The position numbers and the translations under genes were made by a program. This document shows, one piece after another, positions 50,717-59,633 of a stretch of DNA of 64,000 nt; positions within the stretch are counted from its first letter, which is position 1; each line of letters opens with the position of its first letter. Origin of the DNA: Alphaproteobacteria bacterium (GTDB taxonomy: Bacteria > Pseudomonadota > Alphaproteobacteria > UBA8366 > GCA-2717185); assembly GCA_040905865.1 (NCBI GenBank), contig JBBDQU010000060.1, positions 1-64,000 on the forward strand. Reading direction: 5' to 3'. The notes under the pieces were generated by a model. The model did no database searches and was not told where the DNA came from. It saw only the letters and a program-made list of their open reading frames with translations.

Positions 50717-52009
50717 TTGACCCCGAACATTCGAATAGCGCATTTCCTCGCCGGCCGCCTGCCATTCTATTACGGCTGGGTGATCGTCGGCTGCGCCATG
50801 TGCGGCGCCTATGTGAAGCAGGGCGGCGCGGTTGGCACATTGTCGGTATTCGTGTCTCCGATGACCGAGGAACTTGGCTGGTCCCGGACGGAAATTTCCG
50901 GCGCCGTCTCGCTTGGCGGAATCCTCGCGGCGCTCTCGGCGCCGATGGTCGGCACCCTGGCCGACCGGCGCGGCTCGGGATTCATCCTCGTTGCGTCTGC
51001 CCTGCTGCTGGGTGCGGCAACGCTGTTCCTGTCCCTGACGGAAACGCTGATCTGGTTTTACGCGGCCTTCTGCATCGCCCGGATGACGTTCGCCGGGCCG
51101 TTCGATATCGGCACGACAAGTGTCGTCGCGAAATGGTTCGTGCACTCCCGGGCGCGGGCCATGTCCTACGTCAATGTCGTTTCCAGCGCCAGCCTGGCCA
51201 CCATGCCGATCATCGCGCACGCGGCAATGCAGGGCAGCGACTGGCGCGCCGGCTGGATCGCCATCGCGGCCGTGGTTCTGACCGTCGGCGTGCTGCCCAA
51301 CCTTGTCCTGATGGTCCGCCAGCCCGAAGATATCGGCATGCTGCCGGATCGTTCGACGGCGCTGCCGGCGGTGAGTGCCGGCGAAGCCGCCGCCGCACCA
51401 CCGCCCGCCGCGCCGGAATTCACGCGCAAACAGGCGCTGCGCACACCGGCCCTATGGCTGATCATGGGATATACGGCCATGATATTTCCGGTTCAGGCCG
51501 GCATCAGCCTGCATCAGGTGCCGCATCTGATCCAGCGCGGATTGTCGCCGCTTGTGGCGGTCAGCGCCGTCAGCCTGTTTGCGATCATTTCCGCCGTCGC
51601 CAGCCTGGGGTTCGGCTATTTCGACCGGCGGGTCAGCAGCCGCATCGGCCTGTGTGTCGCCGCCGCCTTCATGAGCGCCAGCGCCGTGATCCTGATCGGG
51701 GTTACCCAGGCATGGCACGCCTATGCCTCGATGCTGCTGTTCGGCGCGGGGATCGGCGGCATCTTGACGCTGACGCCGGTCATCCTCGCGGACTATTTCG
51801 GTCGCAACAATTACGGCGCCATCCGCGGCATCGCCCTGCCGGTCCAGGTGATTTTCCAGGCGGCGGGCCCGCTGATCGCCGGGGCGCTGTATGACTGGAA
51901 GGGCGTCTATACCTATTCGCTGATACTGTTCGCCGGCTGCGCGCTGCTCGCCGCCCTGCTGATCCTGTTTACGCGGCCGCCCAACATGCCGGAGCCCCAC
52001 ATCCGGTAA
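50717..52009 (+). CDS. MFS transporter
   Basis: A 430-residue twelve-helix permease of the oxalate/formate-antiporter-like MFS group (RLPFYYGWVIVGCAMCGAYVKQGGAVGTLSVFVSPMTEELGW is typical). LADRRGSG is motif A. Helix seven begins after a long central loop rich in Ala/Pro. The start is TTG at 50717 with a GGCGG upstream; it leads to a sensible short N-terminus. It probably takes up an organic acid. Confidence 0.87.
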   Translation: MTPNIRIAHFLAGRLPFYYGWVIVGCAMCGAYVKQGGAVGTLSVFVSPMTEELGWSRTEISGAVSLGGILAALSAPMVGTLADRRGSGFILVASALLLGAATLFLSLTETLIWFYAAFCIARMTFAGPFDIGTTSVVAKWFVHSRARAMSYVNVVSSASLATMPIIAHAAMQGSDWRAGWIAIAAVVLTVGVLPNLVLMVRQPEDIGMLPDRSTALPAVSAGEAAAAPPPAAPEFTRKQALRTPALWLIMGYTAMIFPVQAGISLHQVPHLIQRGLSPLVAVSAVSLFAIISAVASLGFGYFDRRVSSRIGLCVAAAFMSASAVILIGVTQAWHAYASMLLFGAGIGGILTLTPVILADYFGRNNYGAIRGIALPVQVIFQAAGPLIAGALYDWKGVYTYSLILFAGCALLAALLILFTRPPNMPEPHIR

Positions 52010-52100
52010 CAAGCTCGCGGTAGAATCCGGCAAAAAGCGTTGCTATAGTCGATTACTCATCAAGTACGATTGTGCGGGGGAAATTCCCATTCGCGAACCG

Positions 52101-52610
52101 TTGACATCCGACGAGCAGGAACGATTCCACAACCTGCTCAAACTGGCCAGGGAAAGCCCGTTCGAAGGCGAGCGCCGCAATGCGCTTGCCGCGGCGGAAC
52201 GGCTGGCCAGTCGCCGGGGGATGACGCTCGAGGAAGCGGCGATGCGCCAGGCGCAGCCACGGCCCGGCGCGTCGAATTGGGAACGCGAAGTCCAGGAGCG
52301 GGCGCGGGAATTTGCCGCCTTCGTCCATATGACCGATTACCAGATCTACCTGGACAAGCAACGGCGCGAGGTGGCCCGGCAGGAAGCCGAGGCGCGCGGC
52401 CTGGACGGCGCGGAAAAACGCGCCGCGGCACGGGCGCAGGCGCGATCGCCCCGCCAGACACGGCGCAGCACCGTGTGCATGGCGCCGGAGAAACACGCCT
52501 GGGCGCTGGTCCGCGAAACGCAGCTGTCCTATCGGGAAATCGCCCGAATCACCGGCCTGGGCCAGCATGAAATCCTGCACATGAAGATACAATTGCTGCG
52601 GGCCGCCTGA
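52101..52610 (+). CDS. DUF2786-like N-terminus with C-terminal HTH-like segment
   Basis: A 169-residue basic protein. The N-terminal helix pair (RFHNLLKLARESPFEGERRNALAAAERLASRRGMTLEEA) resembles DUF2786. The C-terminal segment AWALVRETQLSYREIARITGLGQHEILHMKIQLLR looks like a helix-turn-helix. It starts with TTG 52101, which has a poor site; the in-frame ATT at 52089 follows a purine-rich GGGGGAAA and could be a non-standard start. It may be a nucleic-acid-binding protein. It converges on the iron permease gene. Confidence 0.65.
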   Translation: MTSDEQERFHNLLKLARESPFEGERRNALAAAERLASRRGMTLEEAAMRQAQPRPGASNWEREVQERAREFAAFVHMTDYQIYLDKQRREVARQEAEARGLDGAEKRAAARAQARSPRQTRRSTVCMAPEKHAWALVRETQLSYREIARITGLGQHEILHMKIQLLRAA

Positions 52611-52635
52611 TTGCAGCCGCGGATGCGGCGCGCCG

Positions 52636-54306
52636 TTATCTTTTCTGCCCCACCCGGCGCAGGGCCGCATTCATCAGGATCACGGGACCGACACCGGACA
52701 GCACGACGAACAGCGCCGGCAGGGCGGCCTGTTCCAGCAGTTCATCCTTGGCGAACTGATACACATAGGTCGCCAGGGTCTCGAAATTGAAGGGCCGCAA
52801 CAGCAGGGTCATCGGCAGTTCCTTCATCACGTCGACAAAGACCAGCAATCCACCGGCCAGGAAGGAACTGCGCACCAGCGGCAGCACGACCTCCCGCAGG
52901 CTTTGCGGAAAATTCCGGCCCAGGACACGGCTGGCGTTCAGCATGTTGGGGGGCAGCCTGCCGACACCCGAGGTTACCGCGCCATAGCCGACCGCCAGGA
53001 AGCGGACGGTACAGGCCAGCAGGACGAGACCGATTGTCCCGGTCAGGAAGCCGCCGGTCGCATCCCCTAACACCCAGTCGCGCAGCGTGTCGAGCCCGCT
53101 GTCCAGCGCGCCGGAAAACGCCACGACGCCGATGGCCAGAATGGTGCCCGGAAAGGCGTAACCGGTCGAACTGACCGCCGTCATGACTTTCAGAAACGGG
53201 CTGGCGCGAAAGGTCGAAACGAAAACCATGAAACCGGCCAGCGCCATGACGATAACCGCCACCATCAACGAGATTCCGATGGAATTGAAGGCAACGGTGG
53301 TGACCGCCGCCAGATCCGTGTCCGTATAACCCCGCAATACGAAATGAATGAGCACCGATACTGGCACCAGGAAGCCGATCACCACCGGTGTCAGACAGAT
53401 GAACAAACACGCGGCGGCGCGCGGCGGCGGCGCCCGTTCAGGCGCGAACCCGACCGCGCGGCGGCTGGTATCCGTGTAGCGGCGGCGCGAACGTGCGAAA
53501 TACTCCAGCGCCAGCAGGGCGATCACGAACACGAATGACATGGCGGCGATCTGCGCCGCCGCCGGCAGGTTGTTCATGCCCAGCCAGACGTTGAAGATGC
53601 CCAGCGTCAGCGTCTGCACCGCGAAATAATCGACCGTGCCGAAATCGGAGATGGTTTCCATCAGCACCAGGGCCAGCCCGGCGACAATAGCCGGCCGCGC
53701 CATCGGCAGCCCGACCTGGCGGAACAGACCCTGATCGTGGATCTGGGCGATCTCGAACAGCGAATAGGGCGTCAGCTTGAACGCCGTACGCGCCATCATG
53801 TAGACATAGGGATACAGCACCGACCCCATGACCAGGATCGCCCCGCCCATCGACCGTATCTCGGGAAACCAGTAATCCCGCGCGGAGTGCCAGCCGAACA
53901 GCGCGCGCAGCATGCCCTGCACCGGCCCGGCATATTCCAGGAAGTCCGTATAGGTATAGGCGATGATATAGGCGGGGACGGCCGCGGGCAGCAGCAGCAG
54001 CCATTCCAGCGACTGCCGCCCGAAAAATTCGTAGCGCGTGACGACCCAGGCGGAGCTGACCCCGAACAGGAGACTGAGCGCCCCGACGCCAGCCATCAGG
54101 ACCAGCGTATTCGCGATATAGCCTGGAAGGACGGTTTCGGACAGATGCCGCCACAATCCTTCGCTGTCGCCCGTGGCGGCATAGAAGACCGCCAGGATCG
54201 GGCCCAGCAGGAACGCCGCGCAAAGCAGCGTCAGAACCGACCAGCGGTTGGGCATGCCAAAGGACCGCCCCCTCGCCCGCTGCGTCGGGGCGTCGGTGGT
54301 TACCAT
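52636..54306 (-). CDS. Iron(III) ABC transporter permease, FbpB type
   Basis: A 556-residue permease with two fused binding-protein-dependent transport domains (about twelve helices), as in FbpB/SfuB. EAA-like loops are at QVGLPMARPAIVAGLALVLMETISDFGTVDYF (first half) and LREVVLPLVRSSFLAGGLLVFVDVMKELPMTLLL (second half). Its ATG overlaps the FbpA-type stop by seven bases, so both are co-translated. No ATPase gene follows: the next gene downstream is convergent. The nucleotide-binding subunit must be encoded elsewhere. Confidence 0.92.
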   Translation of the reverse strand: MVTTDAPTQRARGRSFGMPNRWSVLTLLCAAFLLGPILAVFYAATGDSEGLWRHLSETVLPGYIANTLVLMAGVGALSLLFGVSSAWVVTRYEFFGRQSLEWLLLLPAAVPAYIIAYTYTDFLEYAGPVQGMLRALFGWHSARDYWFPEIRSMGGAILVMGSVLYPYVYMMARTAFKLTPYSLFEIAQIHDQGLFRQVGLPMARPAIVAGLALVLMETISDFGTVDYFAVQTLTLGIFNVWLGMNNLPAAAQIAAMSFVFVIALLALEYFARSRRRYTDTSRRAVGFAPERAPPPRAAACLFICLTPVVIGFLVPVSVLIHFVLRGYTDTDLAAVTTVAFNSIGISLMVAVIVMALAGFMVFVSTFRASPFLKVMTAVSSTGYAFPGTILAIGVVAFSGALDSGLDTLRDWVLGDATGGFLTGTIGLVLLACTVRFLAVGYGAVTSGVGRLPPNMLNASRVLGRNFPQSLREVVLPLVRSSFLAGGLLVFVDVMKELPMTLLLRPFNFETLATYVYQFAKDELLEQAALPALFVVLSGVGPVILMNAALRRVGQKR

Positions 54307-55367
54307 CCAACCCTGTCGATAATTTTCTGCGCCGCCGGCGCCAGTTGCGCGATCCTGCCAATCGGCAACTGGTCTTCACTGAAATCCCCCAAAGCCTTCA
54401 GTTCCGGCGCGGCAGGCACTTCCGGATTGACCGGGTATTCGAAATTGATCTCGCCATACAGCCGCTGGGCTTCCATGCCGCTGAGGAACTCAAGGAAACC
54501 GACAGCAAGCTGTTTTCGCTGTGAATATTTGGCGACGCCGCCGCCCGATATATTGATGTGGTTGCCACGGTCATCCTGATTGGTGAAAACGATGTTCACC
54601 GCGTCCGCCCATGCGCGTTTTTCCGGGTCCTCGTCAACCATCAGTTTGCCGAAATAGTAGTTGTTAATGATGGCGATATCGCACACGCCCTCGAATACCG
54701 CCTTGACCTGGGCCCGGTCATCACCCTGCGGCCGGCGGGCCAGATTGGCGACGAAACCGCGCGCCCATTCCTCAGCCTTTGCCTCGCCATGCGCTGCGAT
54801 CAGCGACGCCATCAGCGCGCGATTATAGACATGGCTGCCCGGACGCGAACAGATGCGGTCCTTCCATTTCGGATCGGCGAGATCCTCGATCCGCGCGATT
54901 TCGGACGGATCAACCCGGCCCTTCGCCACGGCCACGACACGCGCCCGTTTCGACAATGCAAACCAGCGCCCCTTCGGATCGCGCAGATGCTCCGGAATAT
55001 TCTTTTCCAGCAGCGCCGATTCCACCGGCGCCAGCAGGTCCTTGTCCGCATAGACCATCAGCCGCCCGATATCGACGGTCAGCACCACATCGGCCGGACT
55101 GTTTTCCCGTTCGGCCTGCAGACGCTGCGCGAGCCCACGCGAGGCATAGACGATATTCACCTTTACCCCGGTTTTTGCGGTGTAGGCATCGATAAACGGG
55201 TTGATCAGGAAAGGCTGCCGGTGCGAATAGATGTTCAGTTCTTCCGCCGCGCGTGTTCCGGCGGGATAGAATACAGCAGACAAGGCAAGGAGGAGCGCGA
55301 AGAGACGCGCCCTGGAACGAATTGCCGGGCCGACACGGCCCGTTGCCAAAACTAAGGCGTTCATCAT
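54300..55367 (-). CDS. FbpA-type iron(III) substrate-binding protein (internal start)
   Basis: The second half of the fused frame can start at ATG 55367 or 55364, with a weak ACGGGAA site upstream. This gives a normal 355-residue FbpA protein: signal peptide (cleavage near GTRAAEEL), ELNIYSHRQPFLINPFIDAYTAKTGVKVNIVYA, DVVLTVDIGRL, and the iron-binding tyrosine pair in IINNYYFGKLM (~240). It shuttles Fe(III) through the periplasm to the FbpB-type permease encoded just downstream. Listed separately because either product form is possible. Confidence 0.7.
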   Translation of the reverse strand: MMNALVLATGRVGPAIRSRARLFALLLALSAVFYPAGTRAAEELNIYSHRQPFLINPFIDAYTAKTGVKVNIVYASRGLAQRLQAERENSPADVVLTVDIGRLMVYADKDLLAPVESALLEKNIPEHLRDPKGRWFALSKRARVVAVAKGRVDPSEIARIEDLADPKWKDRICSRPGSHVYNRALMASLIAAHGEAKAEEWARGFVANLARRPQGDDRAQVKAVFEGVCDIAIINNYYFGKLMVDEDPEKRAWADAVNIVFTNQDDRGNHINISGGGVAKYSQRKQLAVGFLEFLSGMEAQRLYGEINFEYPVNPEVPAAPELKALGDFSEDQLPIGRIAQLAPAAQKIIDRVGW

Positions 55368-56348
55368 TTTTCTTGTTCCCGTGTGACAGGTGTCGTGGAT
55401 GACCCGCGCAGCCTCCTGCAGGGGTTGCCCGTACAGGCTTTTAATGCCATGCGCGGTTTCACTCAATTCCGTCCCCAGGCCGAAGCGCAGGACGGTGTTT
55501 TTTTCCGATAGATGCAGGCTGCCGCCGACCCAGTCCCAGACCGCCAGCGCCATGCCGAAATTGCGGTCATGGTGGCGCGGATCGGATGAATGGTGCAGCT
55601 GGTGCTGCGCCGGTGAAATCAGCAGGCGCTCCAGCACCCGGCCATAGCCGATCGATATATGCGAATGGCGGAGGTTCGCCCCCGTCACGTTGAATACGAA
55701 CACGAACAGGTTCGCGCCCAGCACCGTGACCAGATCGACCCGGTCCCCGAAGTAGTATACGAACACCGCGATGACGACCGCCTGCACAAAAATCCCGCGC
55801 AACGTAAACAGCAGCCCCTCCACCGGGTGGGTCCGGTATACCGTCAGCGGCGTCATCGTTTCGGCCGAATGATGCACCTTGTGAAAGGCCCATAACACGG
55901 GCCAGCGGTGCAGCGCGCGGTGCACCAGGTATTTCGTGGCGTCGTCGAGGATAAAATGCGCGACCGTGAATAGCAGCGCCACGCCCCATCCCGGCAACGC
56001 CGCCCATAGCATCGGGCGGCCGCCTGCCATGCCATGCAGGGTTTCGAACAGCACCGCCGCCAGGGCGACCTGCGTGACGAGGAACGGCACCAGGGCCATC
56101 ATCACCGCCTGGTTCGCCAGGAACAGCCGATAGTCGCCCCTGGCTGACGCCGACCACCAGATTTTCCGGTCGAAGACCCGGCGCCAGCCTTCGCCCAGCC
56201 CCGCGCGCAGGCCGGTCCCGGCCGAAAACGCGATGACCGCACAGGCGATTGCCAGTGCGGCCAGCAGATATCCGATAAATACCCGTTTCTGCGGATTGAC
56301 GAACGCATCGCCGAGTTCCGCCAGATAATCAAGGACCGCCGTTTCCAT
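54300..56348 (-). CDS. Sterol desaturase-family protein fused in frame to FbpA
   Basis: One uninterrupted frame of 682 codons. Residues ~1-325 are a fatty-acid-hydroxylase/sterol-desaturase membrane protein, with about five helices and the His clusters HRALH, HKVHH, HSHIS and HQLHHSSDPRHHD that bind the di-iron centre. Residues ~328-682 form a complete iron-binding periplasmic protein with its own signal-like segment (RARLFALLLALSAVFYP). No stop codon lies between them. GGGGAGAAC precedes ATG 56348. It may be made as a fusion with the signal as an extra membrane anchor, or the FbpA part may be made separately from the internal start at 55367. The association of a lipid hydroxylase with iron uptake is unusual. 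Confidence 0.85.
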   Translation of the reverse strand: METAVLDYLAELGDAFVNPQKRVFIGYLLAALAIACAVIAFSAGTGLRAGLGEGWRRVFDRKIWWSASARGDYRLFLANQAVMMALVPFLVTQVALAAVLFETLHGMAGGRPMLWAALPGWGVALLFTVAHFILDDATKYLVHRALHRWPVLWAFHKVHHSAETMTPLTVYRTHPVEGLLFTLRGIFVQAVVIAVFVYYFGDRVDLVTVLGANLFVFVFNVTGANLRHSHISIGYGRVLERLLISPAQHQLHHSSDPRHHDRNFGMALAVWDWVGGSLHLSEKNTVLRFGLGTELSETAHGIKSLYGQPLQEAARVIHDTCHTGTRKMMNALVLATGRVGPAIRSRARLFALLLALSAVFYPAGTRAAEELNIYSHRQPFLINPFIDAYTAKTGVKVNIVYASRGLAQRLQAERENSPADVVLTVDIGRLMVYADKDLLAPVESALLEKNIPEHLRDPKGRWFALSKRARVVAVAKGRVDPSEIARIEDLADPKWKDRICSRPGSHVYNRALMASLIAAHGEAKAEEWARGFVANLARRPQGDDRAQVKAVFEGVCDIAIINNYYFGKLMVDEDPEKRAWADAVNIVFTNQDDRGNHINISGGGVAKYSQRKQLAVGFLEFLSGMEAQRLYGEINFEYPVNPEVPAAPELKALGDFSEDQLPIGRIAQLAPAAQKIIDRVGW

Positions 56349-56366
56349 GTTCTCCCCTGCTCGATG

Positions 56367-56394
56367 CGGCCGGCTCCCGGCGGGGAACCGGCCG
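56367..56394. promoter_or_regulatory. Intercistronic hairpin in the iron operon
   Basis: Arms cggccgg (56367-56373) and ccggccg (56388-56394) lie in the 59-bp gap between the DUF4856 and desaturase/FbpA genes. It could reduce readthrough or protect the mRNA, giving more DUF4856 product than transporter. Confidence 0.4.
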
Positions 56395-56407
56395 TACCGG
56401 AAAACAG

Positions 56408-57856
56408 TCAGTCGTTTTCGGCGCTTTTGCCCGATCCCAGCTTCTTCGCCAGGCCGGCCATGCCCGCCATTACATCGTTGTTGCGCGCACGCACGCCGAA
56501 TTCATCCACCATCAGCTTCTGAACCTTGAGCATGTGCAGTTTGTATTCGTCCAGCGATACCGCCTCGCCCTTGACGTAATTACCGTTGCTGTCGACGTCG
56601 ATGACCTGGCTCAGATTCGGCATGACCGGACCGAACCCGATCAGCCGATTCAACACGACCGACGTCTCGCCGAGATTCTTGCGGCCGGCCTGAAGACTGA
56701 GCGAGAATCCCTTCAGTTCGCCCCAGTGATTGACGTAGTCCCTCAGCACCGTGGCGGTGTCGCCTTTTGCTTCGAGGATCGTCTGCAGCTTGTCGACGTC
56801 CTTGTAGACCGAACCCGCATACTTGAACGCGGCTTCCGCCAGAACCTTTTCCCAGTTGCTTTCGATCGTCGCTGCGTATTCGCGCAACTTGCTGCGCTGC
56901 GCATCCGTCAGCTTCTCGCCATTTGCCGCGACCAGCAGCTTGCGGCCGTCCAGGAAGGCCCGCGTAATCGTGTGCAGATACGTGGTGCCGTTACCCGTGT
57001 CATAGACCGAGGCATCGAACCCGGCGGCGTAATACGCCGGCCCGAACGCCATTTCCCGGTACAGGTCTACCTTGCCGTCCTTGTTGTAATCGGCCTTGGC
57101 GAGGGTCGCTTCCGGGTTTTTGCCGCCCAGCTTGTTGATATCGTAGATATCGCCGGCAGTCAGCTTGAGCGTATGCGCCGGCGTGCCGAAATAGCCGAAA
57201 GCCTCGTCCCAGGAATGCTCCTTGCCGGTATAGGCCGCGCCCTTGCCATAGGGTTCGTTGTTCGGCTTCTTGTCCGCCGACAGGTTTTCATCCAGATAGC
57301 CGTCAACCACCTGATTGTAGAACACCGCACCCATAACGAACTTGGAAATCAGCTGGGCGTAGCTGTAACCGTTGGCCATGTCGAAGCCCTTGTCGGCCGC
57401 CGCGGCCTTGTCGATCCAGAAGGCGACGACTTCCGGACCGGTCATGTTGTTCGGCCACCCGGCGATCGCGCCCTTATAGGTCTTGCTCGCCAGTTCGCGG
57501 CCCTTGCTGATGTCATCGACCATGGCCTGCTCGATGACGAATGGTCCGTTCGAGACCGGCGCCAGGATGGCGCGACCCGGTTCCGTACCCTCGAAATAGG
57601 CCAGCATCTTCGCCTTGAGCGCCGGGTCGGCGCTGCCATTGCCGCTGCCGGCCAGCTTCTTGAGCGAGTCGTGCAGAACATGGCGGGCGATCTGTCCCTT
57701 GTAGGAAACGGAATCTTTTGCCGAACCGGAATATCCCTTTAACGTTACGGGGAACCCGGCATACACGTCTTCATCGGCATGCGCCGGCGCTGAAAAGGCA
57801 AGCAGCCACGCAAAACCACAAAGACCTGTCGATATGTAACTCAATTTATTGATCAT
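56408..57856 (-). CDS. DUF4856 (imelysin-like) exported protein
   Basis: A 482-residue exported protein. A signal peptide (MINKLSYISTGLCGFAWLLAFSAPAHA) precedes the DUF4856 domain, recognised by KEHSWDEAFGYFGTP (~215), NMTGPEVVAFWIDKA and a calcium-loop-like ADYNKDGKVDLYRE (~255). The helical C-half (LREYAATIESNWEKVLAEAAFKYAG) is imelysin-like. The family is best known from Bacteroidetes, where it accompanies iron-uptake genes. Here it heads an iron operon behind a long palindrome. It may bind iron or a surface complex in the periplasm. ATG 57856 begins the signal peptide. Confidence 0.85.
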   Translation of the reverse strand: MINKLSYISTGLCGFAWLLAFSAPAHADEDVYAGFPVTLKGYSGSAKDSVSYKGQIARHVLHDSLKKLAGSGNGSADPALKAKMLAYFEGTEPGRAILAPVSNGPFVIEQAMVDDISKGRELASKTYKGAIAGWPNNMTGPEVVAFWIDKAAAADKGFDMANGYSYAQLISKFVMGAVFYNQVVDGYLDENLSADKKPNNEPYGKGAAYTGKEHSWDEAFGYFGTPAHTLKLTAGDIYDINKLGGKNPEATLAKADYNKDGKVDLYREMAFGPAYYAAGFDASVYDTGNGTTYLHTITRAFLDGRKLLVAANGEKLTDAQRSKLREYAATIESNWEKVLAEAAFKYAGSVYKDVDKLQTILEAKGDTATVLRDYVNHWGELKGFSLSLQAGRKNLGETSVVLNRLIGFGPVMPNLSQVIDVDSNGNYVKGEAVSLDEYKLHMLKVQKLMVDEFGVRARNNDVMAGMAGLAKKLGSGKSAEND

Positions 57857-57888
57857 TCTTCCCACTCGGTTGCATGTGGATCGGACAA

Positions 57889-57931
57889 AATGCGAATAGT
57901 TATGCAAATCATTCGCATAGCTACTCGCATT
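57889..57931. promoter_or_regulatory. 43-bp palindrome, probable iron-responsive (Fur-type) operator
   Basis: A dyad centred on 57910 in which 18 of 21 base pairs match. The core is atgcaaat-c-attcgcat (57902-57918) with outer arms tgcgaatag and ctactcgca. The GCGAATGATTTGC core resembles Gram-negative Fur boxes, and the size fits two overlapping dimers. It lies 33 bp before the DUF4856 start and so over the likely promoter of the iron operon. Confidence 0.72.
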
Positions 57932-58057
57932 CTGATATCACCGATTAACCGCAGTTGCAACGCAGTTGCAGATAGAATCTTTTTTTTCGGCGGCTCAACG
58001 CCGCAATACGCCGCCGGAATCTGTTTTGCAGAATGGGCGCAACGACGCCGAGACGGA

Positions 58058-58615
58058 TCAGGCCGGCGCAGCGTGACCGTGGCGCATGGCTGCAAACGGA
58101 ATCGGCTCCACGGGATCGGCGCCCGGCGCCTGTAGTTTGAGCCCCCACCAGCCCACATCCCGCCAGGCCCCCGACTTGTAGCCAACGCCCTTGAACACGC
58201 CGACGCGCGTGAACCCGCAACTTTCATGAAGCCCGACACTGCCCGCATTTGGCAGGGTTATGCCCGCATAGGCGGTCTGCAGCCCCTGTGCGGCCAGGAT
58301 GGTAAACAGCCGGCCATACAGCCGCCGCCCCAGCCCCCGCCGCCGCGCGGAAGCATCGACATAGACCGTCACGTCGCAGGACCAGCGATAGGCCGCCCGG
58401 ACACGGTGCTGGCTGCCATAGGCATAGCCCAGAACCCGGCCCGCATCCTCGGCCACCAGCCAGGGATGGGTCGCCAGCGTTGCCTCGATCCGCGCCGCCA
58501 TTTCTGCGGCGCCCGGCGGTTCGGTCTCGAAAGAAATCGCCGTATCGCGCACAATCGGCGCGTAAATAGCCGCGATTGCTTCGGCGTCTCGCGGTTCTGC
58601 TACCCGTATCTTCAT
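58058..58615 (-). CDS. GNAT-family N-acetyltransferase, phosphinothricin-type
   Basis: A 185-residue acetyltransferase of the PAT/MddA branch. MKIRVAEPRDAEAIAAIYAPIVRDTAISFETEPP is diagnostic, and the acetyl-CoA loop is in YVDASARRRGLGRRLYGRLF (~90-109). NAGSVGLHESCGFTRVGVFKGVGYKSGAWRDVGWWGLKL matches the C-terminal conserved region. Such enzymes acetylate phosphinothricin, methionine sulfone or related amines. It is monocistronic, upstream of the iron operator on the same strand. Confidence 0.9.
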   Translation of the reverse strand: MKIRVAEPRDAEAIAAIYAPIVRDTAISFETEPPGAAEMAARIEATLATHPWLVAEDAGRVLGYAYGSQHRVRAAYRWSCDVTVYVDASARRRGLGRRLYGRLFTILAAQGLQTAYAGITLPNAGSVGLHESCGFTRVGVFKGVGYKSGAWRDVGWWGLKLQAPGADPVEPIPFAAMRHGHAAPA

Positions 58616-58763
58616 GAAGGACCCGTCGCGGCTTGCTGCAGCACAGCAATTCTAATTCTGCAACCGGCGTACCGGCGCGTCAATTACAGTGTCGAGTCAC
58701 CGCATTTTCGCCGGCGCCTGTAGCCCCGTTCCGTTGCGGGCAATCGCATCGTACCCTGCCCGC

Positions 58764-59633
58764 ATGGATCCCCTGCTCCTCACGCTTTCCTTCGGCGCCG
58801 CCTTCTGCTTTGCGCTCGCGCTGGTCCTGACCCAGTACGGGTTGCGCACGGTCGCGCCGATGGACGGCGCCCGGATCAGCGTGCCGGTGACCGCCGCGAT
58901 ATTTCTCGCATTGTCACCGCTGACCGTCAGTTTCAGCCAGTGGCACGCGGGCAGCCTCACCCTGTTCGCCGCCGCCGGCCTGTTCTTCCCCGTCGCGGTG
59001 ACACTGCTGACCTTCGCCGCCAACCGGTTGATCGGGCCGAACCTGACCGGGACGCTGGGCAATATGACGCCGCTCTTCGCCGTCGGCCTCGCCGCCCTGC
59101 TGCTGGGCGAGGTTCCGGAATCCGGGCAGCTTGCGGGCATCGCCGTCATCTGCCTCGGCGTCGTTCTGCTGTTCGCCCGACGGCAGCGCCGGCCGGCCGG
59201 TATTCCGGCCTGGGCCGTGCTGCTGCCGCTGGCGGCGGCGCTGATACGCGGGCTGGTGCAGCCGGTCGTCAAGCTGGGGCTGGAAGACTGGCCCGACCCG
59301 TTCGCCGCCGTCACGGTGGGCTACCTGGTATCGGCGGTCGTCATGATGACGCTGGGGCTTGCCAGCAACAGTACCGGCGGCGCGTTCGTCCCCGCCGCGA
59401 CGGGGCGTTTATGGTTCGTCGCCGTCGGCATCGTCAACGGGCTGGCGGTTCTGACGCTGTACGCCGCCCTCGCCCGCGGCCCGGTCACCCTCGTCGCCCC
59501 GCTGGTCGCCTGCTATCCGATCTTCACCCTGCTGCTGAACCGGATCCTGCTGGGCGACCGGAACCTCTCGCTACGCCTTGCCGCCGGTGTGGCGGTAACC
59601 GTGGCCGGCGTGGCGCTGTTGCTGGCGTCATAG
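58764..59633 (+). CDS. EamA-family (DMT superfamily) transporter
   Basis: A 289-residue ten-helix permease with two EamA repeats (~5-140 and ~153-288), each ending in the conserved motif as in PLFAVGLAALLLGEVPESGQLAGIAVICLGVVLL and YPIFTLLLNRILLGDRNLSLRLAAGVAVTVAGVALLL. ATG 58764 starts directly at the first helix; the in-frame ATG at 58689 adds a non-hydrophobic leader. Metabolite export is likely. No clear partner gene. Confidence 0.89.
   Translation: MDPLLLTLSFGAAFCFALALVLTQYGLRTVAPMDGARISVPVTAAIFLALSPLTVSFSQWHAGSLTLFAAAGLFFPVAVTLLTFAANRLIGPNLTGTLGNMTPLFAVGLAALLLGEVPESGQLAGIAVICLGVVLLFARRQRRPAGIPAWAVLLPLAAALIRGLVQPVVKLGLEDWPDPFAAVTVGYLVSAVVMMTLGLASNSTGGAFVPAATGRLWFVAVGIVNGLAVLTLYAALARGPVTLVAPLVACYPIFTLLLNRILLGDRNLSLRLAAGVAVTVAGVALLLAS

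Follow-up and report, generated by a model that had tools for sequence, protein, structure and literature searches.

In this study, a single open frame that joins a PF04116 di-iron membrane hydroxylase (hereafter D) to a FutA/FbpA-type ferric-iron receptor (F) was found at positions 54300..56348 on the minus strand of contig JBBDQU010000060.1 (assembly GCA_040905865.1) of an alphaproteobacterium of the UBA8366 lineage; the stretch analysed, its first 64,000 nucleotides, is referred to as the window. Judged from sequence, this is probably (at a rough probability of 0.6) a genuine in-frame fusion of operon neighbours that recurs, is reversible and gives two translation outputs. A first-pass annotation of the same DNA had described, without giving the strand, a di-iron membrane hydroxylase running without a stop into a complete FbpA-type protein with its own signal peptide, and the frame and both of its parts stand.

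The frame comprises 682 codons, with its stop codon at 54300-54302 and no stop between D and F. Its parts, all on the minus strand, are: D (residues 1-318, 55395..56348), recognized by its Pfam match and three His boxes; a short linker (residues 319-327, 55368..55394) from the conserved end of D to an internal ATG, with GGGAA (55376..55380) as a weak Shine-Dalgarno-like stretch judged by duplex energy; the internal ATG itself (residue 328, 55365..55367), followed by a second ATG and proposed as the start of free pre-F; the signal peptide or transmembrane segment of F (residues 328-366, 55251..55367); and mature F (residues 367-682, 54303..55250), with tyrosines 508, 564 and 565. A search of the whole window genome returned the frame unbroken at 100% identity and as the single D/F match at E<=0.001. 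The AlphaFold model (34 alignment rows; mean predicted local distance difference test score, pLDDT, of 86.1; predicted template modelling score, pTM, of 0.57) has a helical D, a well-defined F and, between them, a loosely predicted linker of low pLDDT with one modelled helix (residues 341-359).

The same continuous frame recurs in many other genomes. A protein search of genome contigs kept 80 loci, and searches at the own, class, order and phylum levels (1,087 genome searches) added more. The resulting 220 loci (L-numbers; genomes carry G-numbers) contained 103 D-F pairs, defined as tblastn matches on the same strand less than about 1000 nt apart, and these represent 83 distinct junctions; pairs split over contigs, e.g. 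in G023 (L013 and L020), fall outside this count, and L221-L222 were added after it. Counting the window, 33 of the 83 distinct junctions are open from D into F, far more than chance would give. Their carriers are mostly marine bacteria from several orders and assemblies, and they include the single-contig chromosomes G011, G013 and G438. Drawing 398 genomes from across the phylum, at E<=1e-105, yielded only the window and G148, neither of them a new fused lineage. Genomes with several copies may hold both states: in G042 one copy is fused and one unfused, in G654 two copies are fused and one is not, and in G038 two are fused.

An assembly or sequencing error that removed a stop at 55360-55400 could give the same frame, and the window genome is a draft of 85 contigs; nothing else was found that speaks for such an error. 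The junction is, however, open also in L002 (G024), a close relative of the same genus whose D is 88% identical, and in 31 other distinct junctions spread over several orders and assemblies, which refutes a lost stop and makes an error of this kind extremely improbable. The exclusion for which the first-pass annotation had recommended resequencing was thus reached through the relatives. Some open junctions lie in incomplete loci: L002 is interrupted within F, L199 and L202 run up to the end of their contigs, and L009 holds Ns. In L002/L082/L217 (all G024), the nearest relative, two in-frame TGA codons lie inside F beyond the open junction, reflecting either a broken gene or an assembly frameshift. 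Two titles in the set look wrong: L003 (CP051228.1, titled Mesoflavibacter) and L009 (titled Flavobacteriales) are alphaproteobacterial versions, the junction of L003 being identical to that of G011, from the order of the window, and the F of L009 being very close to that of L006.

The remaining 50 junctions are not open: 46 are out of frame, and four, gammaproteobacterial, are in frame with stops. One family (f144) carries much of the weight in this unfused set. Alphaproteobacterial pairs of the set mostly overlap by a few bases in another frame; among the 46 unfused loci for which an ATG candidate exists, the overlap is 11 nt in 23 and 20 nt in 11. Such short overlaps are typical of translationally coupled genes. 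The longest overlap observed is that of L017/L210 (G654), in which D reads on in a different frame for 94 nt, across the start and signal peptide of F, before it stops. Gammaproteobacterial D-F pairs are mostly gapped, and the gap of two of them (L015 and L046, from some Neptuniibacter) contains a clear Fur-like palindrome, ATGATAACGGTTATC, which suggests that F has an iron promoter of its own there. Homologous loci in which a stop separates the parts had been named beforehand as evidence against a fusion. They make up 50 of the 83, yet they do not refute it, because the open junctions are many, cluster on the tree and have linkers whose lengths vary in steps of whole codons.

Trees of F and of D were each built from 62 of the 83 loci, excluding L002 (truncated F) and 20 near-duplicate unfused loci and keeping L009 despite its Ns. 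The fused/unfused label changes six times on either tree, versus a mean of about 21 for shuffled labels (bootstrap ranges of 6-6 for F and 5-6 for D), and the well-supported branches by themselves demand six changes for F and four for D. Grouping all fused loci in one clade was rejected (approximately unbiased test, p-AU 1.4e-07), a value to be read with caution as long branches, e.g. L140 and L212, are in play. Rooted on the gammaproteobacteria, an unfused ancestor requires seven gains when no loss is allowed; when gains carry a very high cost, one gain with seven losses results. Nine losses are required if the root was fused. Two groups on the F tree are wholly fused, one of 18 rows (support 90/76) and one of five. 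In the former the linker measures 120, 123, 126, 129 or 132 nt, always whole codons with no stop, and its lengths are multiples of three throughout the all-fused groups. The sisters L200 (fused) and L203 (unfused) belong to the same genus, g198.

The signals needed to start F separately have mostly been kept within the fused frames. An ATG lies exactly at 55367, where the first-pass annotation had placed an internal start, 39 codons ahead of the residue used as the first of mature F. In 28 of the 33 fused loci a methionine lies 29-39 codons ahead of mature F, versus a background of 0.0096 Met per residue. At the 30 fused loci with a candidate internal ATG, the mean Shine-Dalgarno energy is -5.74 kcal/mol, compared with -2.45 at 184 other in-frame Met codons of the same genes and -3.54 in synonymous codon shuffles; L007 and L196 are examples with a strong site. 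Since the mean energy lies beyond all 1000 synonymous shuffles, it looks as if the nucleotides, and not only the protein sequence, were shaped for initiation. The signal peptide of F has likewise survived: the hydrophobic segment with its positive n-region is present in all 33 fused loci, and small, signal-peptidase-like residues at P3/P1 are found in 32 of them. By the rule used, the exception is L197, which has no small P3/P1 pair; L004 has serine/glycine ones only.

Several observations weigh against a fusion maintained together with a functional internal start. None of the 1000 synonymous shuffles was as low as -5.74 kcal/mol, but the loci are related and this fraction is not a probability. 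The site in the window is unexceptional, as 26% of its own synonymous shuffles equal the strongest duplex found within the 20 nt upstream (-4.3 kcal/mol). In L006 and L112 the ATG has almost no Shine-Dalgarno sequence, and no ATG was found within the range searched in L008, L009 and L010; alternative starts, e.g. a TTG spotted by eye in L010, are possible. A few lineages seem to have no internal start and may make F from the fusion only. The joint itself appears to be under little selection, since pooled pN/pS (nonsynonymous relative to synonymous polymorphism) is 0.54 in the linker and 0.53 in the signal peptide, far above the values for D (0.22) and F (0.16).

Near-neutral read-through is a serious rival reading, although we consider it unlikely. 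D and F would be functionally separate, the fused state would drift in and out, and the fusion product would have no role of its own. As F starts within the tail of D and has its own signal peptide, a small frame-restoring indel or the loss of the D stop would be harmless. The overlaps of 11 and 20 nt already present in unfused alphaproteobacterial pairs, the six state changes on the tree, the occurrence of both states within g198, the weakly constrained linker and the kept start, Shine-Dalgarno sequence and cleavage-like residues all agree with such drift. The wholly fused groups of 18 and five rows, in which length changes only by whole codons, do not, and neither do L008, L010 and L112, which are fused though their internal start looks lost; unless a weak start is used, F would come from the fusion alone there. 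G298, the source of L112, is 98% complete and has a single match at E<=1e-60.

For the genuine fusion with two outputs the following course is proposed. A ribosome coming from D meets no stop before F, so that the fusion is made whenever D is made, and translation from the D start would yield the 682-residue polyprotein. D would sit in the inner membrane, the former signal peptide of F would cross it outward, and F would fold in the periplasm. Because the internal start, the Shine-Dalgarno sequence and the cleavage-like residues have been kept, F is likely also made alone and the polyprotein is likely clipped, probably by signal peptidase I, which would release F. Initiation at the internal ATG would add further pre-F in the majority of lineages and, at a low level, in the window. 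The fusion and the internal initiation, presented earlier as an either/or, each have their own signals, namely 33 open junctions and a mostly kept start with its Shine-Dalgarno sequence; it is the choice between them that falls, as both are kept at once.

The first-pass annotation had further suggested that the fusion anchors the receptor to the membrane. If the signal peptide stayed uncleaved in the full-length product, D would hold part of F by the permease while internal initiation supplied free F, giving two receptor pools. The predicted topology, with a positive n-region and then a single hydrophobic segment beyond the end of D, would suit such a tether, as would L197 and L004 with their missing or atypical cleavage residues. 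The small P3/P1 residues in 32 of the 33 fused loci argue against permanent anchoring, and the AlphaFold model (pTM 0.57, low linker pLDDT) gives no confident placement of D relative to F; a lasting tether is thus doubtful, and rather less probable than near-neutral read-through.

A more far-reaching version of the two-output fusion is offered tentatively, at somewhat less than even odds. It sees in the D-F frame a repeatedly evolved, reversible polyprotein, in which a multi-pass iron enzyme may serve as the membrane-targeting front end of a periplasmic iron receptor, the internal signal peptide would provide for processing, and the internal ribosome start would determine how much receptor is made free relative to that made together with D. 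Some lineages (L008, L010/L112) would have lost this start, leaving the fusion alone to feed the iron transporter, and living relatives would form a series from overlap to fusion.

The assignment of D rests on PF04116 (FA_hydroxylase), matched at residues 129-276 with 81.7 bits versus a curated cut-off of 31, and on the His boxes HRALH (143), HKVHH (156) and HQLHH (249). These boxes (HxxxH, HxxHH and HxxHH) are present in all 83 junction loci, and hence in all 33 fused ones. In both respects D resembles the fatty acid hydroxylase/sterol desaturase superfamily, and it differs from these relatives in that its C-terminus continues into F. The nearest NCBIfam model, OlsE, was ruled out as an identity for D (42 bits versus an equivalog cut-off of 475). 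A phmmer search of D against the PDB gave only chance matches (best E 0.14), and a fold comparison of the whole D-F model, which barely tests the fold of D, returned relatives of F only. D, an iron-using enzyme encoded in an apparent iron operon, is presumably an active hydroxylase; that it modifies a lipid of the membrane, or a chelator, when iron is short is a guess.

Starting at residue 381, F matches bacterial solute-binding families of Pfam, among them SBP_bac_6 (residues 417-644). Known FutA/IdiA/FbpA receptors are separate proteins with their own genes, and F departs from them in being continuous with a membrane hydroxylase. By sequence, the solved structure closest to mature F is FutA1 of Synechocystis (2pt1; E 1.3e-86, covering mature residues 3-316), with Trichodesmium Tery_3377 (6g7n) at E 6.4e-86, and the predicted fold superimposes on 2pt1 with Z 44.7 and a root-mean-square deviation of 1.4 over 315 residues. 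The label FbpA-type is therefore apt in a broad sense, FutA1 being the nearer relative. The C-lobe tyrosines 508, 564 and 565 lie in YN and NxYY motifs, present in 82 and 81 of the 83 junction loci, respectively, the exceptions being L002 and L202, both with a truncated F. Excerpts of a study of Tery_3377 (PMC6254336) give C-lobe tyrosines as its iron ligands. Sequence, fold and the three C-lobe tyrosines thus place F with the FutA/IdiA/FbpA receptors, which include FutA1, Tery_3377 and Mannheimia FbpA (1q35), and binding of Fe(III) is predicted; in the alignment, the N-lobe HY of FutA1 is replaced by QP in the window.

The frame is embedded in a conserved gene order, all on the minus strand in the window. 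Upstream lies a DUF4856 gene with a signal peptide (56408..57853; likely ATG at 57853, the listed open reading frame opening at TTG 57907), and downstream a long ATP-binding cassette (ABC) transporter permease of the binding-protein-dependent type (52636..54306), with a 7-base overlap with the D-F stop. The order DUF4856-D-F-permease is found in nearly all D-F pairs with sufficient flank, fused and unfused alike, and DUF4856 is the near-constant first gene in both alpha- and gammaproteobacteria. In L036, L037, L039 and L042 (Rhodobacteraceae) D is nearby but on the strand opposite to F, so the two stay associated even where the gene order does not hold. The cassette brings receptor and permease together with no ATPase gene seen alongside (none among the seven flanking proteins scanned in L219), and the ATPase would come from elsewhere. 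A pairing of DUF4856 with imelysin does not hold in the window genome, where PF09375 has no match. An Rfam scan of positions 52000-59000 gave no match at the gathering score.

Upstream of the operon, about 50 bp before the likely ATG of DUF4856, its first gene, lies the Fur-type palindrome ATGCAAATCATTCGCAT (57902..57918, no strand). The iron-type operator proposed earlier is weak when this site is taken alone, as a palindrome with one mismatch is expected 0.27 times per window and was seen in 23 of 100 shuffles; it gains from recurrence, since similar Fur-like palindromes, e.g. ATGAGAATGATTCTCAT, precede DUF4856 in many, but not all, relatives. The cassette may be regulated by iron.

Receptors joined to the membrane part of a transporter are known from GlnP and OpuA. 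To these and to TAXI-GltS, as outlined in excerpts of PMC12344293, D-F is similar in linking a receptor to a membrane protein, and it differs in that the partner is an enzyme, not a permease, and that a cleavage-like site lies between the two. Two products from one frame via an internal start, as proposed here, have a counterpart in the endolysin embedded in lysA of phage Ms6 (PMC3111421). Unlike in that case, the short product would be a secreted receptor with surviving separate-gene relatives, and the long one would span the membrane. The listings and abstract openings of the open-licence literature contained nothing on a D-F fusion, nor on DUF4856 with iron, and DUF4856, hydroxylase, FutA-like receptor and permease form a conserved iron cassette that is apparently undescribed.

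Gene callers would report the D-F frame as one gene and overlook a second product. It is rare for all intermediates to survive when a membrane enzyme has fused with a secreted protein. In the D-F family, separate genes that overlap exist alongside fusions that retain an internal start and others that apparently have none, at times within a single genus or genome. This makes it a testable system and a natural experiment in gene fusion and reversion.

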